Assembly: GCF_008806975.1 (NCBI RefSeq)
Contig: NZ_CP031728.1
Coordinates: forward strand, 558,001-622,000
Length of the DNA stretch: 64,000 nucleotides
Direction of reading: 5' to 3'
DNA from: Cellvibrio sp. KY-GH-1
Lineage (GTDB): Bacteria; Pseudomonadota; Gammaproteobacteria; Pseudomonadales; Cellvibrionaceae
Part shown: one piece after another, positions 4,783-38,972 of the stretch
Numbering within the stretch: the first letter of the stretch is position 1
How the letters are laid out: every line of letters starts with the position of its first letter
Position numbers and translations under genes: made by a program
Notes under the pieces: model-generated
The model's database searches: none
Seen by the model: only the letters and a program-made list of their open reading frames with translations
Told to the model about the DNA's origin: nothing

Positions 4783-4827
4783 GCCTATTCGCTGTTTGGT
4801 GTAAATGAGGCGCGAATGTAGGACGAG

Positions 4828-10646: not shown

Positions 10647-13043
10647 ATGATGTGTTCGAGTTATAAGCTTGATCGGCCCATTACTTTGTTTCTGAAAACC
10701 AGCGTGCTTAGTGTGGCTGCGCTGTTCTTAATCGCCTGTCAGGAAGAGGCGGCAGATAAGGGCGCTGCTGTATCCGAAGTTAAATCAATGCCTGCGGATA
10801 AGGTGTTGTTTGATTTTGAAGGCGATCAGTTACCGGCAGAAATTAGTTTTTTTAACGCTCAGGGAAGTTTGGTTAAATCCTCAGCGAGTGATACCTCCGC
10901 ATCGCAAGCATTAAAAGTAAAGTTCAACTCTGTTGATCATGAATACACCTCCTTAGTTATCCAGCCAAAGTCAGATACATGGAATTGGAGTGATATTGGC
11001 GATGCTAGTCTTGCCTTTGATATTGCCAATGACGGTGAGCATTCCGTACAGCTATTTTTAGATGTGTCTGATGCAAAAGGTAATAGCTTTACTCGCAGCG
11101 TCAGTGTGCCGGTAGGCAAGTCCCGCGTTTATTATTCCAAGTTAAGTGGCCACGATATGGTCAGTGCAAATCCGGATTCCAAAGTGGAGTTGAATGCAGC
11201 CTCAGGATTGCGCGGCAACCCGCCGACCTGGTCTGGCGATGATGTGCAGTTCATCTGGATGTGGGGCGTTATGAATTTGGATTTGTCCGCTATTAAGCGC
11301 ATATCCTTAAGTGTTCAATATGCTTTGCACGATAAAGAAATCACCCTCGACAATATTCGGGTTATTAAAAGCCCTGCAATGAATAAAGATTTCCTGGTCA
11401 ATCTGGTCGATAAATTTGGCCAGCCAGCCAAAGTGGATTTTGCCGGTAAGATTCATTCTGAGACAGAGTTGCAAGCAGCAACCCAGAGCGAGTTGAAAGA
11501 GCTAAATAACGGTGCGCCACTAGCCGATAGATCTACATTTGGCGGTTGGAAAAATGGTCCGAAACAACCTGCAACAGGCTATTTTTATCCTAAAAAAGTT
11601 GATGGAAAATGGTGGTTGGTTGATCCAGAAGGGTATCTTTATTTTGCGACAGGATTGGATATCATACGTTTAGCCAATGCATACACTATGACTGGCTATG
11701 ATTACGATGCTTCAACTATTGAGCAGCGCAGTGCCGATGATTTGACTCCCGAAGACTCGAAAGGAAAAATCCTTATTTCAGAAGAGGCGCAAAAAACCCG
11801 TCATTTGGTTTCTAAAACTCGCGCCGACATGTTTGAGTGGTTGCCCAAGCACACTGACCCTTTGGGTAATCACTATGATTACAATCGTGATGCCCACTCA
11901 GGCCCACTGCTAAAAGGCGAAGCCTTTAGTTTCTATAGTGCCAATCTTGAGCGTAAATACGGTGAAACAGAACCTGATTCCTATTTGCGCCAATGGGAAA
12001 AAGTTACTGTGGATCGCATGTTGAATTGGGGTTTCACCTCGCTAGGAAACTGGACTGATCCAAAATTCTACAGCAATCAACGCATTCCTTATTTTGCCAA
12101 TGGCTGGATTATTGGCAACTTCAAAACAGTTTCCAGTGGCAATGATTTTTGGGGCGGTTTGCCTGATCCATTTGATCCGGTATTTAAAGAGCGCGCACTT
12201 GCCACGGCCAAGGCTATTGCTGAAGAAACTAAAAATAGCCCTTGGTGTGTCGGCGTATTTATTGATAACGAAAAAAGCTGGGGGCGCTCAGAAAGCAAAG
12301 AGTCTGAATATGGCATAGTGTTAAATACACTGACTCGCGATGGCGCAGACTCGCCAACGAAAAATAAATTTACGCAGTTGATGAAAGAAAAGTATGTGGA
12401 TATAGCAGCATTAAATACCGCATGGGGAACCTCAGTTGAATCCTGGGATGCATTTCAAAAAGGTGTAAAAACTGGCATTAACAACGATGTTCAATTGCAA
12501 GATTTCAGTCTGTTATTTACCCAGTATGCTGAAGAGTATTTCAAAATTGTTGAGGGCGCCTTAACACAATATATGCCTAATCACCTGTACTTGGGTGTGC
12601 GTTTTGCAGATTGGGGAATGCCAAAAGATGTAGTTAAAGCAGCGGCAAAATACGCCGATGTTGTTAGCTATAACTTCTATAAAGAAGGTTTAACCAAAAA
12701 TAAATGGACGTTTTTAGCGGAGCTGGATAAACCCAGCATAATCGGTGAATTCCATGTAGGCACAACGGAGTCAGGTTTGTTCCACCCAGGCTTGGTGCAT
12801 GCGGCCAATCAGGAAGATCGTGCAAAAATGTATAAAGAGTACATGGAAACGGTTGTCGATAATCCTTATTTTATTGGTGCACATTGGTTCCAGTATATGG
12901 ATTCACCGGTAACTGGCCGCTCCTATGATGGTGAAAACTACAATGTAGGTTTTGTGTCGGTGACTGATACACCCTATGCACCTATGGTGAAAGCCGCCAA
13001 AGAGCTGCACGGTGAAATGTATACTCGCCGCGCGAAAAAATAA
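10647..13043 (+). CDS. GH50 beta-agarase lipoprotein 1
   Basis: 798 residues. A lipoprotein signal ends in LIAC (Cys near residue 31), so the enzyme is likely membrane-anchored. A CBM-like beta-sandwich of about 230 residues (starting VLFDFEGDQLP) precedes the (beta/alpha)8 GH50 catalytic domain. The acid/base Glu is in IDNEKSWG (about E542) and the nucleophile Glu in IIGEFH (about E701). GH50 enzymes are mostly exo-acting beta-agarases that release neoagarobiose, the GH117 substrate. Two adjacent ATGs (10647, 10650) follow an AGGTG ribosome site. It has two paralogues in the window. Confidence 0.93.
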   Translation: MMCSSYKLDRPITLFLKTSVLSVAALFLIACQEEAADKGAAVSEVKSMPADKVLFDFEGDQLPAEISFFNAQGSLVKSSASDTSASQALKVKFNSVDHEYTSLVIQPKSDTWNWSDIGDASLAFDIANDGEHSVQLFLDVSDAKGNSFTRSVSVPVGKSRVYYSKLSGHDMVSANPDSKVELNAASGLRGNPPTWSGDDVQFIWMWGVMNLDLSAIKRISLSVQYALHDKEITLDNIRVIKSPAMNKDFLVNLVDKFGQPAKVDFAGKIHSETELQAATQSELKELNNGAPLADRSTFGGWKNGPKQPATGYFYPKKVDGKWWLVDPEGYLYFATGLDIIRLANAYTMTGYDYDASTIEQRSADDLTPEDSKGKILISEEAQKTRHLVSKTRADMFEWLPKHTDPLGNHYDYNRDAHSGPLLKGEAFSFYSANLERKYGETEPDSYLRQWEKVTVDRMLNWGFTSLGNWTDPKFYSNQRIPYFANGWIIGNFKTVSSGNDFWGGLPDPFDPVFKERALATAKAIAEETKNSPWCVGVFIDNEKSWGRSESKESEYGIVLNTLTRDGADSPTKNKFTQLMKEKYVDIAALNTAWGTSVESWDAFQKGVKTGINNDVQLQDFSLLFTQYAEEYFKIVEGALTQYMPNHLYLGVRFADWGMPKDVVKAAAKYADVVSYNFYKEGLTKNKWTFLAELDKPSIIGEFHVGTTESGLFHPGLVHAANQEDRAKMYKEYMETVVDNPYFIGAHWFQYMDSPVTGRSYDGENYNVGFVSVTDTPYAPMVKAAKELHGEMYTRRAKK

Positions 13044-13102: not shown

Positions 13103-13175
13103 AACGATGAAATATGTAATCACTACATGCAATGCAGATTTCCAATTCCCATATTTGATAAATACCGGATGTTTT

Positions 13176-15536
13176 ATGAATGATTTTTTTTCACGTCGCG
13201 ATGCATTAAAGCTGGCAGTTGCAGGTCTGGCAACTAGTGCTATTGGCTGTTCTGTAAACACGAGCAATGATAAGCCAGTAACACAACAGCTGCTTGATTC
13301 ATCGGTAGCTGATACCTGGAGCAATAGCCATGATCGGGTATGGATCGGCGGCGACTATTGGGCTAACCCAATGGAGGATTGGCGTATTGTTAATGGTGGG
13401 GCTGAGTGTTTGAGTACCGGCGGAAATCGCAGCATACATTCGTTAACACATCAATTAGCAAATGTATCAGGTATTTTCTCTATTGCGGTGCGCATAAAAA
13501 AATTGACTGTCGGCGAGCAAGATGGCGGTGCCGGTATTCGCATTGGTGTGAATAGCGATATTAAAGAGTATCGCAGTAACTGTTTTGTGCAAAAAGGCTT
13601 TGATGCCGGAATTATCCACAATCAACTTGCATTGGGCGCTAAGCGCGTCGAATTACTGCAATCCTTGGGTGATGCTGAAGTTGAATTGAAGCTCTCTGGT
13701 GAGCCGCGTATTGGTGTATATGCATTGACCCTTGAAGCAAGGTTGGTCGACACAGGCAAACTAATTGGCCAAATAGATGATTTGGTTGCAACCGATCACA
13801 TCATGGGTAATGTCGCTGTGGTCAGTAACTTTGCAATTTCTTCGGAAATCGCGGCGAACCCAAAAGGGACCACCTATCGGTTTTCAAAATGGACACTGCA
13901 AGGCAATGCATTTAGCAATCTACCCGAACAAAAATTTGGTCCCATTTTATGGACTATGTACAGCCTAAGTGATAGCCGCAGCGATGAAGGTTTTGTATTG
14001 AAGTTGAGCGCCTTGACTGGCCCTATGGGGGCGCAAGATAGCCATGAAGTTGAATTGCAGGTGCAGAAGTCTGGCAGTTGGAAAACTATAGCCAAGGCGC
14101 CGTTAGATTCAGATGCTTGGGTGGCTACATTCCGTATTTCGCACTGGAATGAAAAAGAAGTTACTGCGTATCGTGTGGTTTATCGCGAGCAGCGTCGGGA
14201 TGGTAGTCAGGTGTCGGATTATTTTTCCGGTACTATTAAAGCCAATCCAGTGGGTAGAAATTTGCGCATGGCAGCACTGACTTGCCAAAATGATTATGCT
14301 TTTCCCTATGCCCCTGTTGCGACAAATGTTGCCAAGTTAAACCCGGATTTGGTATTTTTTTCGGGTGACCAACTTTATGAGAACCACGGTGGTTTTGGTT
14401 TAATTCGCACGCCTGCTGAGCCAGCGCTGTTAAATTATCTGCGCAAGTTTTATCAATTCGGTTGGGCGTTTCGCGATGTAATGCGCAATGCGCCCACTCT
14501 TTGTTTGCCCGATGATCACGATATTATGCAGGGCAATTTATGGGGCGAAGCTGGCGCAATGGTTTCATCTGATGCCCCTATTATTGATGGCAACGTGGAT
14601 ATGTGGGGCGGTTATGCGCTTCCGATACGTGTAGTGAATACCGTACATAAAACTAATACGGCACATCTTCCAGACCCCCATGATCCAACCCCTTCACTGC
14701 GCGGCATGAATGTGTATTACACCGATTTAGTGTATGGCGATGTTGGTTTTATTATTCTGGCGGATCGCCAGTGGAAGAGCGGTCCTGATCGATTGAATAT
14801 TGTTGTAGGCGTGACCGGTAACGGTGAAGCTCCAACCTTTGTTAACCCTGATTTTGATCGTTCTGATTTACAGCTTTTAGGTACAAGGCAAGAAGAGTTT
14901 TTAGCGCAATGGGCGAATGATTGGCGTGGACATTCATTAAAAGCCGTGTTGAGTCAAACCGTTTTTGCTGGCATCTCAACGCATCAGCCGTTGCCCACCA
15001 AATATTTAAAATATGATTTTGACTCCAGTGGTTGGCCTGCCAGTGCACGCAATCGCGCAATTGAAATCATGCGCACCTCAAAAGCATTGCACATTTGTGG
15101 CGATACGCATTTAGGAACATTGTCGCAATATGGTGTTCACGCACAGCGCGATAGTAACTGGGCATTTTGCACACCGGCAATTGCTGCGGGCTGGCCGAGA
15201 TGGTGGCGCCCTGACGATATAAAAATTCCTTTTGCACATCGCCCTGCCCATGGGCACTCACAAACCGGTGAATATTTGGATAGTTTCGGTAATAAAATTT
15301 ATGTATATGCGGTTGGTAATCCCGAGGTGGGCAAGTCCAATAATCGCTATATTCAAGCTCATGAAAAGGGCAGTGGTTTTGGTTTTATTGTGTTTGATAC
15401 GGTTGCAAAAACTTATACCACTCAAGCCTTTAAATTTTTAATAGATGTGGCAGATAACAGTCCGAATAATCAATTCTTAGGTTGGCCGGTGACTATTCAT
15501 CAAGACGAAAATATCGGGGTGAATAGTTTGAGCTAA
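13176..15536 (+). CDS. PhoD-like metallophosphatase, Tat-exported lipoprotein
   Basis: 786 residues from the ATG at 13176. This start is preferred over the upstream frame opening at 13107 because it gives a proper signal: RRDALKLAVAGLATSAIGC, a twin-arginine motif plus lipobox. An N-terminal concanavalin/LamG-like beta-sandwich (about residues 35-230) is followed by a metallophosphatase domain with FSGDQ, PDDHDIMQG and CGDTH metal-ligand motifs, as in the PhoD/alkaline phosphatase D family. PhoD enzymes are secreted phosphodiesterases. No phosphate is expected in agar, so its role here is open. It is separated from GH50-1 by a terminator. Confidence 0.8.
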   Translation: MNDFFSRRDALKLAVAGLATSAIGCSVNTSNDKPVTQQLLDSSVADTWSNSHDRVWIGGDYWANPMEDWRIVNGGAECLSTGGNRSIHSLTHQLANVSGIFSIAVRIKKLTVGEQDGGAGIRIGVNSDIKEYRSNCFVQKGFDAGIIHNQLALGAKRVELLQSLGDAEVELKLSGEPRIGVYALTLEARLVDTGKLIGQIDDLVATDHIMGNVAVVSNFAISSEIAANPKGTTYRFSKWTLQGNAFSNLPEQKFGPILWTMYSLSDSRSDEGFVLKLSALTGPMGAQDSHEVELQVQKSGSWKTIAKAPLDSDAWVATFRISHWNEKEVTAYRVVYREQRRDGSQVSDYFSGTIKANPVGRNLRMAALTCQNDYAFPYAPVATNVAKLNPDLVFFSGDQLYENHGGFGLIRTPAEPALLNYLRKFYQFGWAFRDVMRNAPTLCLPDDHDIMQGNLWGEAGAMVSSDAPIIDGNVDMWGGYALPIRVVNTVHKTNTAHLPDPHDPTPSLRGMNVYYTDLVYGDVGFIILADRQWKSGPDRLNIVVGVTGNGEAPTFVNPDFDRSDLQLLGTRQEEFLAQWANDWRGHSLKAVLSQTVFAGISTHQPLPTKYLKYDFDSSGWPASARNRAIEIMRTSKALHICGDTHLGTLSQYGVHAQRDSNWAFCTPAIAAGWPRWWRPDDIKIPFAHRPAHGHSQTGEYLDSFGNKIYVYAVGNPEVGKSNNRYIQAHEKGSGFGFIVFDTVAKTYTTQAFKFLIDVADNSPNNQFLGWPVTIHQDENIGVNSLS

Positions 15537-19895: not shown

Positions 19896-22214
19896 TTATT
19901 TTCCAAAACGCTTAATGTAAAGGCTTTTATTGACTTCTTGCGCCGCCTTTACTAAGGGTGTGTAGGGGATGTCGGCAACACTTACAAAACCCACATTATA
20001 ATTCTCACCGTCATAAGCCCGCCCAGTTAATGGCGAGTCAATATACTGAAACCAGTGTGCCCCCACAAAATAGGGGTTTTCAATCACACTATTGAGATAG
20101 CTTTTATATTTTTCACCGCGATCAAATTGAGATTCTGCATGTATTAACCCAGGGTTTAAGAGGCCAGAGTCAATGGCGCCATTATGGAATTCACCAATAA
20201 TGCTGGGTTTGTCTAACTCAGCTAAAAAATCCCAATAAGGTTGATCAATACCTTCCCTATAATAGTTGTAGCTCATCACATCTACATATTTTGCGGCGGC
20301 TTTTAGTACTTCAGGTGTCATAGCCCAATGCGCAAAGCGTGGGCCCATATACAGATGATTCGGCATATATTTTGTTAGTGCTTTATCTACTCGACTGAAG
20401 TAGGCATCAGCATAAAGATAAAGCAATTCAGAGAAGTCGCCCAGCATTTGTGCATTATAAGATGTCAGCTCTACCGGCTGAGACAGCTGTGCCCAAGAAG
20501 TATGTTTTAAATCCCATGCGCTATTTAAGTTTTCTATATTCTGATACTTATTTTTCAGGTGATTGATAAATTCCTGTTTTAAGGGACTGTCATTAGCATT
20601 CTTTTTTAATCCATTGATAACAATTCCATACTGGAGCGAAGGGCTACCCATACTCCCCCAACTTTTTTCATTATCAATAAATACACCTACACACCATGGG
20701 TTGTCTTTTACTTCATCGGCTATTTTTTTAATGGCCTTGTTGGTGCGCTGTGTAAATACTGGGTCAAATGGATCGGGCATGGCACCCCAATAGTCGTTGC
20801 CTGAATTAACTGTTTTGAAGTCACCAATAATCCAACCATTAGCAAAATAAGGAAGTCTATTCATTTGATAGAAGCTAGCGTCCACCCAATTACCAAAGGA
20901 TGTAAAGCCCCAATTATGCATACGTTTGATGGTGGTGTCGCGCCAGTCTTGCATTAGTGCTTCTTCATTTTGCGTGGCGTATTTACGGGCTAAATTAGCT
21001 CTATAGAAACTAAAGGTTTCGCCTTTTTTTAAGCTGCCAGAATGTACGCTGCGGCGATATCCATAATTGGCGCCTGCAGCTTCACTGTAGCTGGGCAGCC
21101 AAGTAAACATATCAGCCCTCAATTGGGAGCTTATATGACGCGATGGCCAAGCTTGTTTCGGGGCAGTGTTTAAACCTATCGAATCTTCGGGGGTGTAATC
21201 GCCAGCATCTCGTTGTTTGATTAGGGCAGCATCAAAATCATAACCGGTAATGGTTGAGGTGTTCGCCATGCGAATATTGGCAATACCATTCGAGAAAAAT
21301 AGATAGCCTTCTGGATCAACGAGAGACCATTTACCCTGATATTTCTCCGCCCGAAAGTAACCGGTACTTTTTAACTTGGGGCCATTTATCCAGCCATTAA
21401 ATGTTGAACGGGATGGGAATTGTTGGTCAGTTAAATTTTCTTGCTCTTGTTGTGAAAAACTACGTAATTGATCGGCGCTGTAAACCTTCCCAGCGAAGTC
21501 TTGTTTTGCATTTTGGCCATACTCATCAACTAAACCAGTGAGGTATTCTGGGTCAAAATTATTAGGTTTAACTACGCGGAGGTTATCAATGATTAATTGT
21601 TTATTTTCCAATACGCCTGAAATAAGCAGACGAATAGATGTGATTGCACTAGTGTCGAGTGTTTTTGTGCCGCCTCGCCAAATAGTTGAAATATAGTTAT
21701 GGGGCCAACTGGGTGGGTCGTTGCGAATTCCGGTATTAAGAAGAAAAGATGGTACTTTAAGTTCAATTAAGTAACTGTTATTTGATTCAGCTGGTACGGC
21801 GACATTACTTAGTTGAAATGCTCCGCTTTTATCGTAAGTATATATGTAGATGTGGGTTGAACTTTTTGTTGAATTTTCAATATCTAACACGAGAGCTGCT
21901 GATTCATAATCATTAAAATTCCATGTGTTTGACGGGTTGATGTAAACCGATGAATCATGATTGTTGAGTGAGTCAAAATTGATTTCTAACCCGTGATTTC
22001 CCTCATTAACAATGAGTTTCGATCTGGCGTTTTGTAGCTCAATTGCTTTTATGTCGCTCTCGTTTTCAAAATCAAGCAGAATTCGTTCTTTAACTTCAAG
22101 CAGGTTAATTTTATCATTCTTGCCTTTTTTGTGTTTTGGTTCAGCGCAGGATGCTATTAAAAATAGACTAATTATGCACAATATAATTTGATTAAGATGT
22201 TGTGAGTTTTTCAT
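19896..22214 (-). CDS. GH50 beta-agarase lipoprotein 2
   Basis: 772 residues from the ATG at 22214. This start has AGGA upstream and gives a proper lipoprotein signal (FLIASC); the frame opens 27 bases earlier. The architecture matches the other GH50s: N-terminal beta-sandwich, then a catalytic barrel with acid/base Glu in IDNEKSWG (about E516) and nucleophile Glu in IIGEFH (about E675). It starts 16 bp after the stop of the FecR-LamG gene and so is the distal gene of the sigma/anti-sigma transcription unit. Expected to act as an exo-agarase on the outer cell surface or in the periplasm. Confidence 0.92.
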   Translation of the reverse strand: MKNSQHLNQIILCIISLFLIASCAEPKHKKGKNDKINLLEVKERILLDFENESDIKAIELQNARSKLIVNEGNHGLEINFDSLNNHDSSVYINPSNTWNFNDYESAALVLDIENSTKSSTHIYIYTYDKSGAFQLSNVAVPAESNNSYLIELKVPSFLLNTGIRNDPPSWPHNYISTIWRGGTKTLDTSAITSIRLLISGVLENKQLIIDNLRVVKPNNFDPEYLTGLVDEYGQNAKQDFAGKVYSADQLRSFSQQEQENLTDQQFPSRSTFNGWINGPKLKSTGYFRAEKYQGKWSLVDPEGYLFFSNGIANIRMANTSTITGYDFDAALIKQRDAGDYTPEDSIGLNTAPKQAWPSRHISSQLRADMFTWLPSYSEAAGANYGYRRSVHSGSLKKGETFSFYRANLARKYATQNEEALMQDWRDTTIKRMHNWGFTSFGNWVDASFYQMNRLPYFANGWIIGDFKTVNSGNDYWGAMPDPFDPVFTQRTNKAIKKIADEVKDNPWCVGVFIDNEKSWGSMGSPSLQYGIVINGLKKNANDSPLKQEFINHLKNKYQNIENLNSAWDLKHTSWAQLSQPVELTSYNAQMLGDFSELLYLYADAYFSRVDKALTKYMPNHLYMGPRFAHWAMTPEVLKAAAKYVDVMSYNYYREGIDQPYWDFLAELDKPSIIGEFHNGAIDSGLLNPGLIHAESQFDRGEKYKSYLNSVIENPYFVGAHWFQYIDSPLTGRAYDGENYNVGFVSVADIPYTPLVKAAQEVNKSLYIKRFGK

Positions 22215-22230
22215 TGGTAGGTTCCTGGTG

Positions 22231-23799
22231 CTAATGGCCAACAGTATTTTTTTTCATTAGGTTTTTAATCTGTGGTTCATCAAGAGCCGAGTCAAAGATG
22301 TATAGTTCATCTAATTGCCCGCGGAAAAAACGATTATTTTGATTGGTGTTTTGATCATCAAACGCAATATTACGACCCATAGTTAATGGTTTTGAATTTG
22401 GGTGATTAAGGTCGGTAAAGACTTTAGCTATAGATTTGTGATCGCTGTATTCTAAGTTGCCATCTACATAAATAAGGACATGTGTACTAAGATTTGCGTC
22501 TTTGCCACCAAATAAAACAATTGCTAAGTGATGCCAATTGTCATCGCGTAAGTCGGTAGTTCCCACTATTTCACCTTGATTCGTTCCTATACGGATGCGA
22601 CCAAGGGGGCCACTAACAGCTAATGGATTCAATGAAATTTGCCATGCGGATTGCACATCGCTCAAGCCCCAATTCAATATTCCAAACCCTTGTGATAAAG
22701 AAAAATCTTTAGGTGCTTTCAACCAAAAAGCCACAGTTCGAGGTTTGTGCCCGCCGATCCCTTTATATGCAGTGGCCAGCCAGCTGTTTTCACCATCAAA
22801 ATTAACGGCATTTCCAAATTTACCTGGTACGGTTGATATGCCTGCAAGTTTCTTGTTTAGTGAATTTACTTTTGCGTTGTAGCATTTGCCGTCTATTCCC
22901 GTGCCGATACAGGAAAATTCTTGTTGTGATAAATCATCAAAAGACCAGTGCAGGTAATTGGGTTGTGCTATTGATCGGCCAGGGAGACTGCGCATAAAAC
23001 GATTGGGGTTATTTTGAATGTTAATAACTTGTTGTTGTAAATCAAACGCGCGAGCTTGATCTTTAACTAATAATTGGTAGGGTTGATCGGTACTGGCTCT
23101 TACTTTTACTTCACCGGTAAGTACGTGCACCTGACTTTTTCCATCATCTTCAACACTAACGCCAAACTCTGTACCTAAATCAATAATGCTCGAACTGGGC
23201 GTGTCAACTTTGAAACCGGTGGCGGCTGGCGGTACATTGGCGACTAGTTTTCCGCGCCTTAACAATAGGTGCTCATCCGATAGTATATCTACACTCATTG
23301 GTGCTTCTAATAAAAGACGAACACCATTTTTCAGCGTGATTTCGGCATAACCTTGGCTTAAGGAAAAAGGGCCTGATGATATTTTCTGCCCTTCAGTCAA
23401 TGGTTTGCCTGAAGAAATGGCGGAAACAACTCGATATACCGCACCTACCTCGGTAATTTCCGGGGAAAAAATCTTTAGTAAAAACAGAAAAGAAAGAAAG
23501 CTAATGGCTGCAGCTAGTGCATACCAGTGTCGCTTGATATTGAATATCTTTACAGTTTGGTCGCGTATGGCAGATTGGCTATTATCGCCATAACGACTAT
23601 TAAGTTTCTGTTCTAGTTTTTGCACAAAGTCATCTGTTGAGTTTTCATTTAATAAGTGACTCAATTGCCTGTGCATGACGCGTTGACTAGCCAGCTTATT
23701 TAATAGATCTGGATTTTTAGCAATGGCCTCTGCTAATTGCGACTCAACTTTTTCGCCTGCGATATAGTCCGCTATTAATTGTTCATCATGATTTCTCAT
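22231..23799 (-). CDS. FecR-type anti-sigma-like membrane protein with a LamG sensor domain
   Basis: 522 residues. The cytoplasmic N-terminus (about 1-90) is followed by a single transmembrane helix (about 93-112, WYALAAAISFLSFLFLLKIF). A FecR domain (about 125-230, including FKVDTPSSSIIDLGTEFGV and VHVLTGEVKV) and a C-terminal LamG/concanavalin-like domain (about 280-515, with NWHHLAI and DELYIFDSAL) follow. The start overlaps the ECF sigma stop by 4 bp. FecR proteins control ECF sigma factors in response to an outside signal, and LamG domains often bind glycans. Direct sensing of agar fragments is inferred. The fusion is better known from planctomycete-type bacteria. Confidence 0.85.
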   Translation of the reverse strand: MRNHDEQLIADYIAGEKVESQLAEAIAKNPDLLNKLASQRVMHRQLSHLLNENSTDDFVQKLEQKLNSRYGDNSQSAIRDQTVKIFNIKRHWYALAAAISFLSFLFLLKIFSPEITEVGAVYRVVSAISSGKPLTEGQKISSGPFSLSQGYAEITLKNGVRLLLEAPMSVDILSDEHLLLRRGKLVANVPPAATGFKVDTPSSSIIDLGTEFGVSVEDDGKSQVHVLTGEVKVRASTDQPYQLLVKDQARAFDLQQQVINIQNNPNRFMRSLPGRSIAQPNYLHWSFDDLSQQEFSCIGTGIDGKCYNAKVNSLNKKLAGISTVPGKFGNAVNFDGENSWLATAYKGIGGHKPRTVAFWLKAPKDFSLSQGFGILNWGLSDVQSAWQISLNPLAVSGPLGRIRIGTNQGEIVGTTDLRDDNWHHLAIVLFGGKDANLSTHVLIYVDGNLEYSDHKSIAKVFTDLNHPNSKPLTMGRNIAFDDQNTNQNNRFFRGQLDELYIFDSALDEPQIKNLMKKNTVGH

Positions 23800-24371
23800 T
23801 CGCTTTCTCCTTGCTGCTGTTTAATAATGCAATCGCGCAGCCATTCACGGCAGCGATATAGCCGCATGGTCATTGTTGAATGTTTTACGGTAAATTTTTC
23901 ACAGAGTTGTTTCACACTAAAACCCTCAACGTAATGATCGCGTAATATCGCCTGTTGATCAGGCTCAAGCTTCAAAAAACATCCTGAAAGCCCGGTAAAA
24001 TCAATTGCATCTTCCGTGCTTATGCTCCCGCTTAATTGTTGTGTGTCTAGTAACTCTTGAATAATGTCGGGTTCATGAGGTGTGGAACGCAGATGCTTTC
24101 GGCGATGATTGCGGATAAGATTTAAAGCAATACCAGAAATCCATGAACGAAAAGCGGCAGGGTCATTTATTTTTTTTAAATTCTCATAGGCCAATATAAA
24201 TGCCTCTTGTGCGAGGTCATCTACATCTTGAGTGTATTCAGTGCGGCTGGCTATAAAAGCGCGCAAATAACGTTGATTTAGCTGCACTAGTTTACTGAAA
24301 GCAGACCGATCACCCGCTTGAGCCGCCTTTACATGGGTGCATACATCTTTGTCGGCTACTTTATTTTCCAT
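23796..24371 (-). CDS. ECF-family RNA polymerase sigma factor
   Basis: 191 residues. Region 2 contains DVDDLAQEAFILAYENL and a SWISGIALNLIRNHRR segment that would contact the -10 element; region 4 has the DHYVEGFSVKQLCEKF helix-turn-helix. No region 3 or 1.1 is seen, as expected for ECF factors. It is translationally coupled to the FecR-LamG gene (4-bp overlap), the usual pairing of a sigma factor with its regulator. The GH50-2 gene downstream is an obvious target or co-expressed gene. About 100 bases separate it from the FAD oxidoreductase gene upstream. Confidence 0.9.
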   Translation of the reverse strand: MENKVADKDVCTHVKAAQAGDRSAFSKLVQLNQRYLRAFIASRTEYTQDVDDLAQEAFILAYENLKKINDPAAFRSWISGIALNLIRNHRRKHLRSTPHEPDIIQELLDTQQLSGSISTEDAIDFTGLSGCFLKLEPDQQAILRDHYVEGFSVKQLCEKFTVKHSTMTMRLYRCREWLRDCIIKQQQGESE

Positions 24372-24474: not shown

Positions 24475-26757
24475 TTACAGAATTTCAATTGCAAATAGAC
24501 TGGCGGGAGCGCCAGCTTCAGTATGAGACAATTCGATATTTAAACAATTGGACAGCAGTGGAGGGTTAAAATGAATGATCTTTATGCTTTGATAATTTCC
24601 CGCGCAGGCATATAGCTCTTCGCCATATGCATTTAATACGCGGATGGTCTGTACACAACAAGGCATTTGAGTTTCTGGATGCTCCATCAGTACAGTTTCT
24701 AAGGCGTGATCAGCATCAGTATCGAAAAATAGTTTTAGCCCAGTTATTTTAACGTTATCTGACCAAGATAATTCGATATTAGGGTTTTTATCTTCAAGTT
24801 TAGCAACCCAGGCATTTGTGCCGAGATAAGGGCGAATAAAACCACCGCGTAAATGCTCTGCCGAATAAGGTTTGAGTGCGGGCGATAGGTGTAAGGCAAG
24901 ATTATGTCCATTGGGGCGACGCTCAGGCGTCCAAAATTCAAATGAGTCTAAACCACTATTTTTGGGCGGGTCTTGGCGTCCAGTGTTTGAAACTGCCTTG
25001 TGAATTTTATTAAGCAGTGTGCATAGTCCAGTTATACGTTGATCGGTTAACGCCAGACTTGCGGTGTCATTGCGCATAAAACATAAAAACCCATATTGTT
25101 GCTGACTTAATTCAGCCATAAATTGTATGTTGATATTTTGTTCGCCTGGTGCAAGTGAAAGCTCAATTCGTTCCACTAAAATATCGGGTGTGTAGTTTCC
25201 GATTTTGCTGCTTATACGTAACTCGCATATCAAAATGCTTTCCATTTGTGCGCGGACATCGATATTTATCTTTGGCACCGGGCCTGCGTTCAATGGGAGT
25301 AATTGCGCCAAACTTTGGTCTAATGTTTTGAAGTCACCATTAGCAGGTAAATTATTTAATTCGAAAGTGGAGCTGGCTTTAATCTTGGCATTTTGCATTA
25401 AAAGGGAGGGTGTTATGGGGATCAGGGGGATTGACTGCCCATTAAGATTCAAGCGTTGCTGAAGTTCTTGCATGTGTTTAGGCGCAAGTAGTGCAGCAGG
25501 TTTGCAATTTAATTCACGGCAAAATGCAGCAGCCTCGCCAACCGCCTGACCACCATGGGCACAGGTAATCATTACGCGAGTTGATCCAAAAGCCATATGG
25601 CTTGCACTGATAATGCGCCCCGCTAAAAATAGATTATCAATATCACGACTCACAAAACAACGATAGGGAATTTGATAAACCCCTTTAGAGTGAAATTGCG
25701 AGCATGCAGGCTTATCGCTATAGATGCCTTCGGCTGGATGTAAATCAATCGCCCAGCCACCGTAAGAAACTGCATCGTCGAAAATGTGTTGCGTCACAAT
25801 ATCCTGTTGCTTCAGCATGTAATGCCCTTCGAAACGCCTACTTTCGCGCTTGCCCGGAATAGTGCCCACCCATTCTAAGGTTAAGTTTTCTACATCTTCA
25901 AATTTTCCGCTATTTTTTATGTAATCCCAAATGCCATAAACAATTTTCCAAAGCTCCCACTTTATATCTTCACTTTGGTAGATCGTATCAAGCACGCCGC
26001 CAAATTCTAACCACCAAAACTTACAACCGGAATCATTGCCATTAATATTTTTGCAGCGAGGAATAGCGGCAATTTCTTCGTGGCTATAAGCAAAGTCAGG
26101 TTTGGTGAATACCACTGGGCGGTCTAATTTTTTACTGTAAAAAAATAACGAATGACCGAGTAAGTCGGTACTTTCATTTTTAGGCGCCATGAGTTCGCCA
26201 AACTCCTCGCAAGACTCTGCACCCATACGAAAACTTGCACCAGCATTAAAAGCCAGTATGCCATCACCGCTTGCGTCACAAAATAACGGGGCATTAATAT
26301 GGTATTGAGTAGAGTTTTGGCTACAAAAGGCTAAAACGCTGTCTATTTGTGTAGCTAAGGTTTTATTTACTTGAAATACTGCAGTGTTTAACAACAGAGT
26401 GATATTAGCTTCAGCGGCAACTTTATTTAACAAAATACTATCAAAAATTAGCGCATTACCCAGTTGATTTTGTTTTAAGTTGTCAAGCATGATCTCATCA
26501 ATTACACCTCCCTCACGCGACCAGCGATTATTATTGCCCATGTGAGAGGTGGCACCGAGGGCCCAGAGTCTAACTTCGGAAGAGGCATTGCCACCGAGCA
26601 CAGGACGATCTTGTACTAATACTACACGGCTGCCCGCGCGCGCTGCAGTTATAGCTGCACAAACTCCCGCTAAACCACCACCTGCAATCACTAAGTCGGT
26701 ATTAATAACTATTTCTTTGTTTAAACGTGATGTTGAACTAAAGGGTGTAGTAATCAT
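24475..26757 (-). CDS. FAD-dependent oxidoreductase, large two-domain type
   Basis: 760 residues. The N-terminal dinucleotide-binding motif is VIAGGGLAGVCAA, then a VLGGNASSEVR motif typical of the PF12831-type FAD oxidoreductases, and a second FAD motif near LFLAGRIISASH. The C-terminal 280 residues form a beta-rich domain without clear family assignment. No signal peptide, so cytoplasmic. It lies 37 bp after GH117 in an operon with a symporter. The family is abundant in glycan-degrading planctomycetes and Bacteroidetes, and its substrates are mostly unknown; oxidation of a galactose or AHG derivative is only a guess. Confidence 0.8.
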   Translation of the reverse strand: MITTPFSSTSRLNKEIVINTDLVIAGGGLAGVCAAITAARAGSRVVLVQDRPVLGGNASSEVRLWALGATSHMGNNNRWSREGGVIDEIMLDNLKQNQLGNALIFDSILLNKVAAEANITLLLNTAVFQVNKTLATQIDSVLAFCSQNSTQYHINAPLFCDASGDGILAFNAGASFRMGAESCEEFGELMAPKNESTDLLGHSLFFYSKKLDRPVVFTKPDFAYSHEEIAAIPRCKNINGNDSGCKFWWLEFGGVLDTIYQSEDIKWELWKIVYGIWDYIKNSGKFEDVENLTLEWVGTIPGKRESRRFEGHYMLKQQDIVTQHIFDDAVSYGGWAIDLHPAEGIYSDKPACSQFHSKGVYQIPYRCFVSRDIDNLFLAGRIISASHMAFGSTRVMITCAHGGQAVGEAAAFCRELNCKPAALLAPKHMQELQQRLNLNGQSIPLIPITPSLLMQNAKIKASSTFELNNLPANGDFKTLDQSLAQLLPLNAGPVPKINIDVRAQMESILICELRISSKIGNYTPDILVERIELSLAPGEQNINIQFMAELSQQQYGFLCFMRNDTASLALTDQRITGLCTLLNKIHKAVSNTGRQDPPKNSGLDSFEFWTPERRPNGHNLALHLSPALKPYSAEHLRGGFIRPYLGTNAWVAKLEDKNPNIELSWSDNVKITGLKLFFDTDADHALETVLMEHPETQMPCCVQTIRVLNAYGEELYACAGNYQSIKIIHFNPPLLSNCLNIELSHTEAGAPASLFAIEIL

Positions 26758-26794: not shown

Positions 26795-27973
26795 TTATGG
26801 ATTGGATTTTCTAGCTTTTATTTGATCGGGGCTTAGGCACTGATAGAAATATACCTCAGGTTTATGCACCAGATCTGTTTCCTTCATGTCAGTGTTATTA
26901 CTGCCAGGTATTAAATTACAATCAAATCTGCCGAGAAAACTGAATTTTTTATCAGGTTTTTCTTTGTCGCAAAAATGCGCTAGCCCCCAGCGGATGCCTT
27001 GCCCATTACCGGAGTCATCAAACGCATCTGGCACATAGGGGCCTGCTGCAATCGGCATTAAGGAGCTGACAGCCGCTAAGCTAAAGTTCACGCCATCTTC
27101 TGCATATTGAATCGTATTGTTTTCATTGCCATTGCGCGTAACTAAGGCAGCAATGCCTTTTTTAAAGGGGAAAAAACATGTTTCATGCCCTGAATTTAAT
27201 ACGGGGTTTAAGGCATGTTTTTTAAAGGGCCCCAATGGTGATTCTGCGATAGCCAAACCATTAGCCACTAAATATTCAGGCCTATCACCAAAGGCGGCTT
27301 TGTAATAAAGATGAATTTTATTGTTATAGATAAGTAAATAAGGATCATGAATGGAGTATTGATCCCACTCACCGGGTGCACCATTAGGTACCACCACATT
27401 GCCGCAGGCTTGCCAGGGGCCATTGGGTGAATCAGACATCGACATGGTTACCGGGCAGTGATCACCCTTAAGTCCACTTGCTTCCATGAACGCCTGATAA
27501 TAAAGATAGAATCTACCCTTCCAAATTAGAATGTCAGGAGTGCTCACGGAACGCCAGCCAAGTCCGGGTTTTTCTGGGCGTTTGATTGCCACTCCTTGTT
27601 CTTGCCAACTAAAGCCATCTTTGCTTGTCGCGTACCATATTTCTGCTAAATCCCAATCTGTTGATGGAATTTCATCGCTACATTTAAGCGGCCCTTGGGG
27701 TGCTGCGATGGTGTTACGTTTGGTATACCAAACATAAAAAATTTCATTGTGTTTAATGATTTTAGAGGGGTCTCGACGAGAAACTCTCCCTGTATCACCT
27801 TGGTAATCAAAACCTTCTATTCGCGTATATTTAAAACTGCTGAATAGATCATTGTCCTCTGGGCGAGGGCTTTGGTAATTATCATAGAGTCTACTCATTG
27901 CGGCACTTAACTCACGCTTAGGGCGCTGTTGAGGAATGTCCCATGGAAATCCGCCAGAATCTTGGTCGCTCAT
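26795..27973 (-). CDS. GH117 alpha-neoagarobiose hydrolase (3,6-anhydro-alpha-L-galactosidase)
   Basis: 392 residues without a signal peptide, so probably cytoplasmic. The sequence follows a five-bladed propeller enzyme: SRRDPSKII near the N-terminus, VSTPDILIWKG, SIHDPYLL, and GHETCFFPFK with H263 and E264 corresponding to the conserved His-Glu pair of GH117. GH117 enzymes remove the non-reducing-end anhydro-L-galactose from neoagaro-oligosaccharides, giving AHG and D-galactose. Its start overlaps the SSS symporter stop (TAATG), so import and cleavage are translationally coupled. Confidence 0.93.
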   Translation of the reverse strand: MSDQDSGGFPWDIPQQRPKRELSAAMSRLYDNYQSPRPEDNDLFSSFKYTRIEGFDYQGDTGRVSRRDPSKIIKHNEIFYVWYTKRNTIAAPQGPLKCSDEIPSTDWDLAEIWYATSKDGFSWQEQGVAIKRPEKPGLGWRSVSTPDILIWKGRFYLYYQAFMEASGLKGDHCPVTMSMSDSPNGPWQACGNVVVPNGAPGEWDQYSIHDPYLLIYNNKIHLYYKAAFGDRPEYLVANGLAIAESPLGPFKKHALNPVLNSGHETCFFPFKKGIAALVTRNGNENNTIQYAEDGVNFSLAAVSSLMPIAAGPYVPDAFDDSGNGQGIRWGLAHFCDKEKPDKKFSFLGRFDCNLIPGSNNTDMKETDLVHKPEVYFYQCLSPDQIKARKSNP

Positions 27974-29649
27974 TAATTGCTCCTTGAAAACAATTTATCT
28001 TTACCTAAAAGTATCAGAGCAATTGCAGTAATAGCTAAGCCCATGGTGGTAATAATAAGGGTGCCAGTTTCAGCTGTTACACCTAAAATAAACATCGTTA
28101 AACCAACGGCGGAAATTCCAATAGCAATCACCCGAATACCGCGGTTATTTTCAGTTGTGTTTTTTGTTTCTAAGTTAGAGGAGTTTTTTTCATGATTTTT
28201 TTCAGCTGAAAACTCGCCTATCTTTTTATGGCCAGGCGCTTCGTAGCCACGCACTCTAAGCCGCCATTCAAATATAGCTAGTAGGAGCGCAGGCAGGAGC
28301 ACGCCTAATAACATTTCTTCGGTGCGATTTAAGGTGATATTGAACAGAGTGGGGGATATAAATTTAAAAAAGATATTGACAGATAAGCTTATGAATGTGG
28401 TTGCCAAAATGCTCGCGCCAGTTTGAAAACGAGAAAATAACAACCATACCGGAGGCAAAAATAATGCGCCTCCCGTTAGTGCTGCCATGGTCATAACTAC
28501 ATTTACCACACCGCCTAAAAAGGGCACCAGTAGTGCAACTGTAATAGTGCCAAACCCTAATAAAACAGTGGCTAGTCGGCCCACAAATACTAAATGACTT
28601 TCTGATGATTTGGGTCTAAGAATACGGTACACATCATTGGTGATTACGCCTGCAGTAATATTGAGTGCAGTATTGATTGAGCTTGAGGTTGCGAAAACCA
28701 TACCTGCAACAATTAACCCTAACATGCCTGCCGGTAAAACTTCTTGGCACATCAATAAGTAAGCTCCCTCGGCTTCACTGAGGGATAAATTAGGATTTAT
28801 CAAACGATAAGCCATAGGCGCGATCATCCAAATTAAGGGGCTAACCAAGTAGAGTGCGGCAAATAACCATGCTACTTTTTTTGCGTCTTTAGGTGTGGAT
28901 ACACAGGTGAAACGTTGAATGTAGGCCCAGTTCCCAGCAATAAAAAATAAATTAAATAATCCAAATGCAAAGATGAATGACCAAGTAAATTCGCCCGCAA
29001 CAGGTGCAAAAAAATCCTCTGGCGCCTGTTGAATAAATTCATTTAATCCGCCAATACGATCAAGCGCTAAGGGTACTACAATTAATACCGCCGCCGTCAG
29101 CACTACAAATTGTAAAATGTCGGTCACAATGACGGCCCACAAACCACCCACTGCAGTATAAGCGAGAATAATTAGCCCTAAAATAATAATGGTTTCAGTG
29201 ATCGGAATGCCTGTAGATACTTGTACAATTTTAGCGACAGGGTATAAAAATGTTCCGGTAGAGAATGTGCTAATAATTAAAAATGTTACCGTATATACTT
29301 TTTGCACTCTTAAACCAAGCCGAATTTTAATAAATTCGGCTGCTGTTAAGACCTGAGTCGCCTGCCATTTTCCCGCGATAAAAAATCCAATTAAAAGCCC
29401 AGCTATACACATAGTCCATTGAATGGTGATAGCTACCCATCCGTAGCTATAAGCGATAGAACCCCAAACAACAAAGGTGCCGGCGGAAAAAAAACTCATG
29501 AATAGCGATAAGCCACTCATCCACCAGGGCAGCGCGCCACCGGCGGAGAAAAAACCACTGAGGCTTTTCCCTGCACCGGAAAAACTAAGGCCACAAGACA
29601 CTACAATAAACGTAAATATGGCAATGACACTTAAATCAATTACACCCAT
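27973..29649 (-). CDS. Sodium:solute symporter (SSS family)
   Basis: 558 residues, about 13 hydrophobic helices from the N-terminus to residue 480, a charged cytoplasmic stretch near 490, and two more helices at the C-terminus. The SSS-type signature region lies around GTFLYPVAKIVQ and AYTAVGGLWAVIVTD. By position (coupled to GH117) it most likely imports neoagarobiose or another small neoagaro-oligosaccharide across the inner membrane (inference). It follows the discoidin-containing GH16 gene by 64 bp. Confidence 0.88.
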   Translation of the reverse strand: MGVIDLSVIAIFTFIVVSCGLSFSGAGKSLSGFFSAGGALPWWMSGLSLFMSFFSAGTFVVWGSIAYSYGWVAITIQWTMCIAGLLIGFFIAGKWQATQVLTAAEFIKIRLGLRVQKVYTVTFLIISTFSTGTFLYPVAKIVQVSTGIPITETIIILGLIILAYTAVGGLWAVIVTDILQFVVLTAAVLIVVPLALDRIGGLNEFIQQAPEDFFAPVAGEFTWSFIFAFGLFNLFFIAGNWAYIQRFTCVSTPKDAKKVAWLFAALYLVSPLIWMIAPMAYRLINPNLSLSEAEGAYLLMCQEVLPAGMLGLIVAGMVFATSSSINTALNITAGVITNDVYRILRPKSSESHLVFVGRLATVLLGFGTITVALLVPFLGGVVNVVMTMAALTGGALFLPPVWLLFSRFQTGASILATTFISLSVNIFFKFISPTLFNITLNRTEEMLLGVLLPALLLAIFEWRLRVRGYEAPGHKKIGEFSAEKNHEKNSSNLETKNTTENNRGIRVIAIGISAVGLTMFILGVTAETGTLIITTMGLAITAIALILLGKDKLFSRSN

Positions 29650-29713: not shown

Positions 29714-30979
29714 TTATTTTTTACGTGTGTAATAGCGCACATAATCAATTTTCATACTGGTACCATTGATGGCGTCGGTAACGGGCCCGGCTATTTCAGC
29801 TTTTAAAATAGCCAAGCTAAATAATATTGTCTGCTCACTGAAGCAAACATCATTGCGCATGCTGTAATACAATTTTCCATCCATATAAAAATGGAAATAA
29901 TCTTGGTCCCACGCCATGCCGTAGGTGTGCCAATCACTAGAGTAGTCAGCAACATCGGCGGCATCATACTGGCTGATAAGCTTCCATTTTTTTCCGTCAA
30001 AATATTCAAGCGTATAGTCGGTAATTAAATTGCGATATTTTCCTAGTGACGGACCGCTTTCTTGCAGCCAACCATTGGTGAATTGGATCGCTCCAATTTC
30101 CTTAGGGGTGTCCCAACTCAGCTCCAACCATTTGAGACCATGCTTGCCAGACACCCAACGTGTATCTAGACGATTATCAATTGCAAAGCTTTCTTTTGAG
30201 GGGAGCTTATCGAATACACCACTGGTTTTGAGATTGGTATCTTTGGCAAGCGCATAATTTGTAACACTTGTTGAGTCCAATGGGCTCATTACATTGGGAT
30301 ATTTGGTCGCAGGGGGGAATACTTGAAATTCATGAATGTGTATTGATTCTGGGCTAGTGCTACGCAGACGAATTTTGGTTGTTTTGATCGGGGCCTTTAG
30401 CACAATGTTGTGTCCCGGCTCGCCATCTAAGGTGTGGTGCAATTGATTGTCATCATGGCTTACCTGACCATTGGGCAGAGTATAAGTATCGGTCCAATTG
30501 TGCACATTGGTATTAATGATATTGGGATAATGGCCTTCATTAATGTCGATTTCACAAGCCTTTTGTCCTGCCGCAACCCCTTGTTTCGGCCATAACCAAA
30601 ATGAATTATTCGTACCGTAGGCACCGGCATATTTATAACGCGCCTCAAAATACCCATAATGGAAAGTTCGTTTGCTCCAAATGTTTCCCGTGGTCCAGGG
30701 CTGCGATTCTGCACGAGTCTCTTTTTTACTCAGTAATTCAAGTACGCCATTTTTCACCACTGCGTTTTCACGCCAGCGGCTACTCAACACCCACTCATTT
30801 TCAGTTGCACCATTCTGACTGATCCAATTATTCTCCAAATCCGAGTTTTTATAATTAAATTCGTCGCTCCATTCAAGCTTCCACTTTTTAAGGTCTAACT
30901 GACTTTCTTGGGCGAGTACTGTTGATGATGCCAATACAACTACCAGCATATTTATAGTAAAAAAACTTTTTTTAACCAC
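29714..30979 (-). CDS. GH16 enzyme with a discoidin-like domain inserted in the catalytic fold
   Basis: 421 residues with a signal peptide (cleavage after VLA). The GH16 fold starts at WSDEFNY, and the catalytic motif is E143-x-D145-x-x-E148 in CEIDINEG. After about residue 183 the GH16 sequence stops and a discoidin/F5-8-type segment of about 150 residues follows (IRLRSTSPESIHIHEFQVFPP, SFAIDNRLDTRWVSG, WLELSW, YTLEYFDGKKWKLI). GH16 sequence then resumes at SDWHTYGMAWDQ and runs to the final MKIDYVRYY. Substrate (agarose, porphyran or other galactan) cannot be fixed by eye. First gene of the unit with the symporter and GH117. Confidence 0.85.
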   Translation of the reverse strand: MVKKSFFTINMLVVVLASSTVLAQESQLDLKKWKLEWSDEFNYKNSDLENNWISQNGATENEWVLSSRWRENAVVKNGVLELLSKKETRAESQPWTTGNIWSKRTFHYGYFEARYKYAGAYGTNNSFWLWPKQGVAAGQKACEIDINEGHYPNIINTNVHNWTDTYTLPNGQVSHDDNQLHHTLDGEPGHNIVLKAPIKTTKIRLRSTSPESIHIHEFQVFPPATKYPNVMSPLDSTSVTNYALAKDTNLKTSGVFDKLPSKESFAIDNRLDTRWVSGKHGLKWLELSWDTPKEIGAIQFTNGWLQESGPSLGKYRNLITDYTLEYFDGKKWKLISQYDAADVADYSSDWHTYGMAWDQDYFHFYMDGKLYYSMRNDVCFSEQTILFSLAILKAEIAGPVTDAINGTSMKIDYVRYYTRKK

Positions 30980-31388
30980 CGGTTAACCTCGCATTAATAT
31001 AAAAATATAGTAACTGAATTAATTGAGCTGAAACCCTATTGTTAGACTTATCATGGCGGCGCTGAACGCAGGTTCATGGCATAAATCTTCACAAATGCAC
31101 TATTTCGAATAGCGAATACTTACCTTAGTGTGTTGGCTCTGCTCAGTTGACACATAATTTTATGAAAAATTTATATTTTATGCGGGAGCTCCCCTGATCC
31201 TGTATGGAGTAGACTTAGATAAGAGGTAAGGTTTAGCTAGAGAGTAAGATATTTATGCATATATCCATATGTATTTTATTGTTGGGTAAGTCTCATTGCG
31301 CCGCAGGGTTCAAAAGGTCACGTTAATATCTTGGCCTGTGTAGATGCTCTACCATGCGTTTCTTATTTTTACGAAAGTTGTAGCACTT

Positions 31389-37290: not shown

Positions 37291-38550
37291 CTAACCTGTT
37301 GTTAGTAAATTTTCTTGTGTTAATTCGTACTGAGAATTAGCAAGGTTGGTTTTGTTAATTTTGCTATTTGTTTTAATCAATTTGGTTCCGAGAACATATG
37401 CTTTGGCATTGTTAATTGCATCTACCGCCAGCAATTCATCCCCTGCAAAATACCAAGTGGAAAATTTCTGTTCAGTGGTGTTTTCGCGCCGAATTATGAT
37501 TTGATCATAACCACTGGAGAGCCCTACCATTTGTAATTTTACATCGTACTGATCCGACCAGAACCAGGGTAGGGCATTATAATCTTGCGCTTTACCACAA
37601 ATATCCAGCGCCGCAATTTTGGCTTGATCGACAGCATTTTGTACCGATTCCAAACGTATGTGACGTTGATAGTGTGGATTAAAGTGATAGCTGCAATCGC
37701 CAATGGCATAGATGTTTTCGTTGCTGGTGCACGCCTGTGCGTTGACACAAATGCCGTTTTCAATGGTTAAACCAGCTTGTTCTGCGAGGATTTTATTGAT
37801 CCGCACCCCGACCCCCACAATAATAATATCAGCTAGATATTCTGCACCGTCGCTGGTATGCACTTTATTAACGCCAGCATCGGTGGTGATGGCACTGACA
37901 TTTTTCTCGGTAACAATTTTTACACCATGAGCTTCATGCAGTTGTAAAAAAAAGGCCGACATTTCAGGGGCGGTGACACGGGCGAGAATGCGATTTTCAC
38001 GCTCTAGTACCACCACAGATGCGCTCAATTTTTTCAGCGAGGCCGCCGTTTCCAAGCCAATATAACCACCGCCAATAATCACAACACGTTTGTTTGAGCT
38101 GCTGTGAAGAGCCGCTTTGATGCCAAGGCTGTCTTCCAGATTGCGCATAAAAAAAAGATTGTGCGCATCAGTTAAGCCACTGATCGCCGGCACTATAGGG
38201 CTTGCGCCGGTCGCTAGAATTAATTTGTCGTAATAGAGTTCATCACCACTATAGGTAGAGATTTTTTTTGCCTTAGCATCCAGCTGGGTGACTGTAACTC
38301 CCAGCAATAATTCGATGTCATCTTGTGTGTAACTGGCTTCTGGCTTGAGCGCCAGTTTTTCGATTGGATCATTGCTGGTGATATAAGTTTTTGATAGTGG
38401 CGGGCGGTGATAGGGCAGCCTTGGGTCACTATCGATAAGTACAATTTTTCCTGCCCAGCCCTCTTTGCGCAGTGCAAAGGCGGCGTTAACACCGGCGTGA
38501 CTGGCGCCGACGATAATACAAGTTGCTGTTGTAAGCGGATGCTTAGTCAT
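37291..38550 (-). CDS. FAD-dependent ferredoxin reductase for the P450 system
   Basis: 419 residues of the putidaredoxin reductase / rhodocoxin reductase family. FAD motif GASHAGVNAAFALR at the N-terminus, LPYHRPPLSK, ATGASP, the NAD-binding GGGYIGLETAASL motif near residue 150, and the second FAD motif NIYAIGDC. Third gene of the P450-ferredoxin-reductase operon; it passes electrons from NADH to the [2Fe-2S] ferredoxin. The last 30 residues are extra and polar. A gene remnant lies immediately downstream. Confidence 0.92.
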   Translation of the reverse strand: MTKHPLTTATCIIVGASHAGVNAAFALRKEGWAGKIVLIDSDPRLPYHRPPLSKTYITSNDPIEKLALKPEASYTQDDIELLLGVTVTQLDAKAKKISTYSGDELYYDKLILATGASPIVPAISGLTDAHNLFFMRNLEDSLGIKAALHSSSNKRVVIIGGGYIGLETAASLKKLSASVVVLERENRILARVTAPEMSAFFLQLHEAHGVKIVTEKNVSAITTDAGVNKVHTSDGAEYLADIIIVGVGVRINKILAEQAGLTIENGICVNAQACTSNENIYAIGDCSYHFNPHYQRHIRLESVQNAVDQAKIAALDICGKAQDYNALPWFWSDQYDVKLQMVGLSSGYDQIIIRRENTTEQKFSTWYFAGDELLAVDAINNAKAYVLGTKLIKTNSKINKTNLANSQYELTQENLLTTG

Positions 38551-38612
38551 AGCCTTTAACCCACAAATAATTGTTTATTGTTGTTTGAATGTTGTTGATT
38601 GGTTTGGATTGT

Positions 38613-38921
38613 TTAGCCAACAACTTCGAGTACCAAGCCATCTACCTGAGGGGTGATTTCAATTTGGCAACACAAACGACTGAACTCATTTACATTGTCG
38701 TCCAGCTCCAGCATGTCTTTCTCAATGTCACTGGCAGCGGTTAATTTACTGGCATGCTCTGCTGGAACATAAACATGGCAAGTTGCACAGGAGCAAACGC
38801 CACCACAGTCGCCGCCAATACCTGGAATGCCGTTGTTAACCGCCAGTTCCATTGCATTGCCTGAAGTTGCCTCTAAAGTGATGCTGTCTTTACCGGGAGT
38901 AATAAAGGTAATTTTGGCCAT
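38613..38921 (-). CDS. [2Fe-2S] ferredoxin, putidaredoxin type
   Basis: 102 residues. Cluster ligands follow the Cys-x5-Cys-x2-Cys...Cys pattern (GDCGGVCSCATCHVY and a later RLCCQIE) of adrenodoxin/putidaredoxin-like ferredoxins. It sits between the P450 gene (51 bp upstream) and the reductase gene (62 bp downstream), completing a class I three-component P450 system. It shuttles single electrons from the reductase to the P450. Confidence 0.93.
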   Translation of the reverse strand: MAKITFITPGKDSITLEATSGNAMELAVNNGIPGIGGDCGGVCSCATCHVYVPAEHASKLTAASDIEKDMLELDDNVNEFSRLCCQIEITPQVDGLVLEVVG

Positions 38922-38972
38922 TTTGGTTTCTCGTGTAAAAATGTTATATTCAAGAATTGTTCGAGTAAGAGA

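Follow-up and report, generated by a model that had tools for sequence, protein, structure and literature searches.

The window analysed here is a stretch of 64,000 nucleotides from the genome of Cellvibrio sp. KY-GH-1 (contig NZ_CP031728.1, positions 558,001 to 622,000). Its minus strand carries a putative operon for agar degradation which comprises, in this order, genes for a glycoside hydrolase (GH) family 16 protein, a sodium:solute symporter (SSF), a GH117 enzyme, a FAD-dependent oxidoreductase, an extracytoplasmic function (ECF) sigma factor, a membrane protein that joins a FecR to a LamG domain (hereafter FecR-LamG) and a GH50 beta-agarase (Table 1). We focus on the ECF/FecR-LamG pair, a real and conserved regulatory unit that probably acts as a switch across the membrane, sensing sugar and controlling the agar operon.

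Table 1. Features of the agar operon and of its proposed regulator, in window positions.
Feature	Position	Strand	Basis and remarks
ECF sigma factor gene	23796..24371	-	191 aa; Pfam and NCBIfam profile matches
FecR-LamG transmembrane protein, proposed anti-sigma factor and sensor	22231..23799	-	522 aa
Single transmembrane helix, residues 94-112	23464..23520	-	Transmembrane prediction
FecR domain, residues 149-232	23104..23355	-	Pfam PF04773
LamG/ConA-like domain, residues 335-512 (structural match 274-519)	22264..22797	-	Pfam, AlphaFold2 model, PDB structural search
GH50 beta-agarase, final operon gene	19896..22214	-	Pfam and PDB matches
FAD-dependent oxidoreductase PF12831, conserved operon member	24475..26757	-	Pfam, conserved gene order
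GH117 3,6-anhydro-alpha-L-galactosidase-like enzyme	26795..27973	-	PDB 4u6d 4e-159; 4ak5 1.3e-60
Sodium:solute symporter (SSF), likely sugar import	27973..29649	-	Pfam; import role inferred
GH16-family protein, first operon gene	29714..30979	-	421 aa; GTG start; GH16 match in two stretches
Putative ECF-factor promoter, ATGTGTCA-N15-VACA	31129..31155	-	150 bp ahead of GH16, the first operon gene; genome C1:589129-589155

The two open reading frames (ORFs) of the pair share 4 bp, and a 16-bp gap (22215-22230) separates FecR-LamG from the GH50 start codon, an ATG at 22214. Both spacings had been given in the original prediction and are borne out by the coordinates. An alternative GH50 start, the TTG at 22241 favoured by the mechanical ORF list, would overlap FecR-LamG. 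The short sigma factor contains sigma-70 regions 2 and 4 (Pfam PF04542 Sigma70_r2, 1.2e-12, and PF08281 Sigma70_r4_2, 3.2e-6, both above cut-offs), which places it among the ECF factors. Its best NCBIfam model was TIGR02989 (Sig-70_gvs1), at 106.3 bits, below the curated threshold of 124.55, so the protein was not assigned to that subfamily. The last gene is predicted to encode a GH50 beta-agarase on the basis of its matches to Agarase_CBM (Pfam, 1.2e-60) and to solved beta-agarases (4bq2, 6e-239; 6xj9, 3.8e-233). The coupling of a FecR-domain membrane protein to an ECF gene through this overlap is a trait that the pair shares with Fec-type surface signalling.

Pfam profiles matched both domains of the architecture that had been read from the sequence, namely FecR (PF04773, 4.8e-9, 37 bits against a cut-off of 24) and a C-terminal LamG-like domain (Laminin_G_3, PF13385, 4.4e-13, 50.1 bits against 27.6). 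Three families were matched by the protein at E <= 0.001 (Laminin_G_3, FecR and Laminin_G_2), and the RsgI N-terminal domain was not among them. The N-terminus was predicted to be helical and is followed by a single transmembrane helix. The AlphaFold2 model had a mean pLDDT (predicted local distance difference test) of 85.4. Residues 41-90 had low values, whereas the part that begins at residue 281, taken in 25 ten-residue blocks, reached at least 90 in 16 of them. Structure prediction had been suggested as a check on the C-terminal domain, and the model indeed adopts a LamG fold. Among solved structures, a structural search placed it closest to domain 4 of the GH43 arabinanase AbnA (PDB 5hon, 17% identity in the alignment), solved with an arabino-oligosaccharide. 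That domain belongs to an extracellular enzyme and not to a regulator. Together, profile, model and structural matches identify the domain as a LamG/ConA-like jelly roll; a PDB sequence search with the LamG part did less well than the structural search and returned only a weak match to an S-layer protein. Conservation was 0.56 for the FecR domain and 0.61 for LamG. The homologue alignment held 31 of the 102 proteins from the homologue search.

The order of the seven genes is identical in Gilvimarinus chinensis, G. polysaccharolyticus, G. agarilyticus, another Gilvimarinus and Marinimicrobium agarilyticum. Several Catenovulum carry the same operon but without GH50 immediately following FecR-LamG, Psychrosphaera and Agaribacter have an additional gene ahead of the ECF gene (of the lactonase family in Psychrosphaera), and Gayadomonas has a shortened form. 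In a Pseudomonadales metagenome-assembled genome (locus L016), GH16 and SSF are oriented facing an ECF-FecR-GH50 unit. Of 338 related stretches, the 80 best entered the neighbourhood comparison (77 loci). Relatives of the window's GH16, GH117, GH50 or GH86 proteins were found in the 10-kb flanks of 14 of the 18 close-clade loci (L016-L032, L037) and in none of the 59 more distant loci from the Planctomycetes-Verrucomicrobia-Chlamydiae (PVC) group. The exceptions were L019 and L020 (the latter from Catenovulum maritimum), where an FAD oxidoreductase precedes the pair and a sulfatase directly follows it, L023 (Lentisphaera, with sulfatases nearby) and L031 (Kiritimatiellae). Scanning of the window returned 23 sigma-70 promoter-like sites against 32.1 in shuffled sequence and 17 terminator-like sites against 11.4, with no minus-strand terminator-like site in the gap between the FAD oxidoreductase and ECF genes. 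Gilvimarinus polysaccharolyticus also contains a second, divergent ECF/FecR-LamG pair (L018:18303-20406) about 7 kb from the first, with 29% identity over 219 residues, which adjoins a relative of the window's CBM6 protein.

Co-inheritance was assessed in the GTDB family of the host. Among its 144 genomes, FecR-LamG was found in 10 and Agarase_CBM in 28, and all 10 lie within the 28, an overlap with a probability of 1.7e-8 under independence when kinship is ignored. In every one of the ten, FecR-LamG and a GH50 domain (PF17992) are no more than about 0.3 kb apart. Since this proximity is accompanied by a gene order that recurs across families, the pairing goes beyond chance, and the coupling of pair and agarase operon that had been proposed from one sequence extends to its relatives. 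Orthologues of the remaining genes were searched in the 28 GH50 genomes: that of the operon's GH16 occurred in exactly the ten FecR-LamG genomes, and that of the FAD oxidoreductase in the same ten plus one genome with a 42% match, lying away from the regulator in G373 (11 kb distant) and G424 (on another contig). By this distribution both genes are hardly seen without the regulator among the GH50 genomes of the family. A class-wide survey of 369 genomes was too broad for this purpose (FecR-LamG in 1, Agarase_CBM in 2).

Upstream of the operons we observed a directional element, WTGTGTCA-N14/15-VACA, preceded by an A/T-rich stretch, which we propose as the promoter of the ECF factor. It was first spotted by eye in upstream DNA and afterwards tested on overlapping data, with slightly different patterns (WTGTGTCA in the genome-wide scan, WWGTGTCA in the locus scan and in a scan of seven further genomes). 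Across 16 leader regions, two of them chosen around known matches, ATGTGTC occurred in 13 and TGTGTCA in 12 (11 and 10 of 14 without the L106 and L108 regions), while over 300 dinucleotide shuffles no 7-mer at all exceeded 10 and TGTGTCA never exceeded 3. Of 14 leader regions, 13 have GTGTCA directed toward the operon; the opposite orientation was found once, in L016, where GH16 is divergent, and L029 reads GTGTCG. The WWGTGTCA-type pattern matched 26 times in 23 close-clade loci, against 3 matches in reversed sequence. Because this set, which leaves out L031, includes pairs of loci from the same genome (L021/L109, L030/L108 and L032/L106), 15 non-redundant loci were counted separately (20 versus 1 reversed); the 59 PVC loci gave 1 versus 0.

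Genome-wide, 13 of the 40 matches in the ten FecR-LamG genomes fell within 13 kb of FecR-LamG, at least one per genome, where 0.27 were expected under uniform placement with a distance limit that was set after the matches had been seen. The 18 GH50 genomes without FecR-LamG had 1 of 38 matches within 13 kb of a GH50; the anchor thus differs between the two sets, and the near-identical genomes G000, G386 and G388 were counted separately. Totals were not raised over the reversed pattern (40 versus 40 in the ten genomes, 38 versus 63 in the 18 others), so the signal lies in the place of the matches and not in their number. The looser pattern gave, in the seven further genomes, 13/10, 13/14, 15/10, 23/7, 10/9, 23/9 and 16/6 matches in forward/reversed form. 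Nor is the motif enriched across the window as a whole, where 23 matches were found against 21.35 expected with two mismatches and spacing 14, and 4 exact WTGTGTCA against 4.96.

Where the genes are dispersed, the element accompanies them. It stands ahead of GH50 in Catenovulum, Psychrosphaera and Agaribacter, ahead of GH2 in Agaribacter and Gayadomonas, and ahead of a lactonase, a GH50 and a GH16 in G373. In Lentisphaera marina it precedes the ECF gene, a sulfatase gene and the gene of a related FAD oxidoreductase. Some sites fall at the very start of a called ORF, for which a later start codon would be needed. The commonest right halves in 24 selected sites were AACAAT (7) and AACACT (4). 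Within the host genome the site at 31155-31129 is the only promoter-like one. Since ORFs of 90 aa or more contain the six other pattern matches (for one match this is no more than a doubtful ORF of 94 aa), a wider regulon in this genome is unsupported.

Our reading of the pair as a switch draws on gene order, domain make-up, predicted fold, co-inheritance and the conservation and direction of the motif. When substrate is lacking, the cytoplasmic N-terminus of FecR-LamG (approximately residues 1-88) would act as an anti-sigma domain and hold the sigma factor. An agar-derived oligosaccharide in the periplasm may then be bound directly by the LamG domain, and the change would be relayed via the FecR domain and the single helix to release the sigma factor, possibly through proteolysis as in the Fec and RsgI systems. 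The freed factor would read TGTGTCA-N14/15-(A/G/C)ACA ahead of GH16 and transcribe all genes from GH16 to GH50, presumably as one transcript. Because ECF and FecR-LamG are among these genes, the switch would feed back on itself.

A quite improbable account is classical Fec-type surface signalling, in which a distant TonB-dependent receptor would bind the agar oligosaccharide and contact FecR, with LamG only tuning or stabilising the contact. FecA signals via its STN domain. Of the 23 STN matches in the ten FecR-LamG genomes, none shares a contig with FecR-LamG at a distance of 158 kb or less, a test limited by the short draft contigs around the gene in G424 (9 kb), G415 (125 kb) and G427 (147 kb). 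The search was able to detect such partners, since the one further FecR match of the host genome (C1:1270939) is neighboured by an STN match at 1270097. The result agrees with the departure from a TonB-receptor circuit that had been supposed at the outset. In favour of this account, conservation of the FecR domain comes close to that of LamG, and a TonB-receptor-like gene with the motif before it leads the operon in Marinimicrobium and two Gilvimarinus; the Marinimicrobium receptor (L106), however, consists of plug and barrel with no STN match.

We also consider it improbable that a separate transcription factor, acting as a dimer, uses the GTGTCA element as its operator and that the pair governs something else. 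Although the window site reads as an imperfect inverted repeat, the ACAC right half that this would involve is present in only 8 of the 24 selected sites (including those of the window, Gilvimarinus and Marinimicrobium) and missing from 16. The nearly uniform sense orientation in the leader regions, the lack of any other regulator among the seven shared operon genes and the single match near a GH50 in the 18 genomes without FecR-LamG also argue against it. Conceivable, though unlikely, is a LamG domain that senses a ligand other than agar (a sulfated galactan fragment, a cell-wall sugar or a protein partner), with the agarase linkage reflecting co-transfer only. The sulfatases behind the pair in L019 and L020 and the Lentisphaera marina sites ahead of a sulfatase and an FAD oxidoreductase would suit such a ligand; against it stand the GH16, GH117 and GH50 relatives near most close-clade loci, the GH50 association in all ten genomes of the host family, and L020 itself, which has another GH16-family gene about 6 kb from the pair.

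Among known systems, the closest working analogue of the proposed switch is SigI/RsgI of Clostridium thermocellum. According to PMC4711584, the anti-sigma factors of that system carry a terminal sensing domain of the CBM3, PA14 or GH10 type. There, a membrane-associated anti-sigma factor that senses through an extracytoplasmic domain of its own controls genes for polysaccharide degradation, as we propose here. The sigma factor is of another family, however, FecR and LamG take the place of the RsgI parts, and the setting would be a Gram-negative periplasm with an agar operon as the target. The pair would work like RsgI without being one, as its parts are of the Fec and LamG kinds and the search returned no RsgI domain. 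It shares with FecI/FecR/FecA and other TonB-linked ECF systems the overlap of the ECF gene with that of a FecR-domain membrane protein, and differs from them in the extra LamG domain and in having no STN match nearby. PVC FecR-LamG proteins and the Rhodopirellula/Verrucomicrobium sigma subfamily (TIGR02989) resemble it in best sigma model, architecture and tree placement, but the sigma score is below threshold and the agar-enzyme relatives are absent from all 59 PVC loci.

The FecR-LamG tree (56 rows) placed the 21 gammaproteobacterial rows on one side of a starred branch (98), adjoining Lentisphaera and Kiritimatiellae among rows of Verrucomicrobiota, Lentisphaerota and Planctomycetota. The tree came from a 'quick' search and has several long rows; L047 was excluded for its shortness, and the loci beyond L052 were mostly left unused. 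Its topology fits a single acquisition from a PVC-type donor with later spread, and is compatible with the transfer from planctomycete-type bacteria raised in the original prediction, although its root is a midpoint and the direction of transfer is therefore inferred. The view of the fusion as known mainly from planctomycete-type bacteria did not hold for its close form: of 17 full-length homologues at 43-60% identity with a named organism (most other matches being unnamed), 15 were from marine gammaproteobacteria and 2 from Lentisphaera. The ECF/FecR-LamG unit, with its own promoter signature, recurs in agar-degrading bacteria of several families. A broader scenario, which we hold tentatively and at slightly less than even confidence, is that the self-contained periplasmic sugar sensor frees an ECF factor of planctomycete or lentisphaeral origin reading its own TGTGTCA-N14/15-RACAMT code, and that regulator, code and some targets moved between phyla as a unit, re-aimed from sulfated glycans (the Lentisphaera sulfatase target) to agar (the gammaproteobacterial GH16, GH117 and GH50 targets).

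Other features of the window were also observed. The operon's GH16 protein aligns to solved GH16 enzymes in pieces only (approximately residues 31-168 or 341-419), and this, with its two separate Pfam GH16 stretches, suggests a large insertion in the predicted catalytic fold. Cytochrome P450 and ferredoxin reductase genes lie within the agar region at 37291-40157; such sets demethylate the 6-O-methyl-galactose of agar and porphyran. Also in the agar region, a PhoD-like phosphatase-family protein (13107-15536) immediately follows a GH50 gene (10647-13043), and two tryptophan-halogenase-family genes adjoin a TonB receptor at the left end of the window (3187-6348).

In a literature search that left most subscription journals and preprints outside its coverage, we came across no account in which agar-degrading gammaproteobacteria sense the substrate via a sigma factor, and no paper joining FecR, LamG and ECF sigma factor or agarase, ECF sigma and FecR. 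The available portions of PMC4807772, PMC7406223 and PMC5613140 describe no ECF/FecR-LamG pair, and in that of PMC11216935 LamG and anti-sigma concern separate proteins. The switch would thus be a variant on a known sensing principle, RsgI-like in its working and built from Fec and LamG parts. The question lends itself to direct testing, given a promoter and a ligand-binding domain that are both predicted and a set of genes inherited together, and a portable sugar-responsive sigma/promoter pair would serve as a laboratory switch. The related PVC FecR-LamG proteins, some of which lie beside sulfatases, would likewise gain a plausible role.
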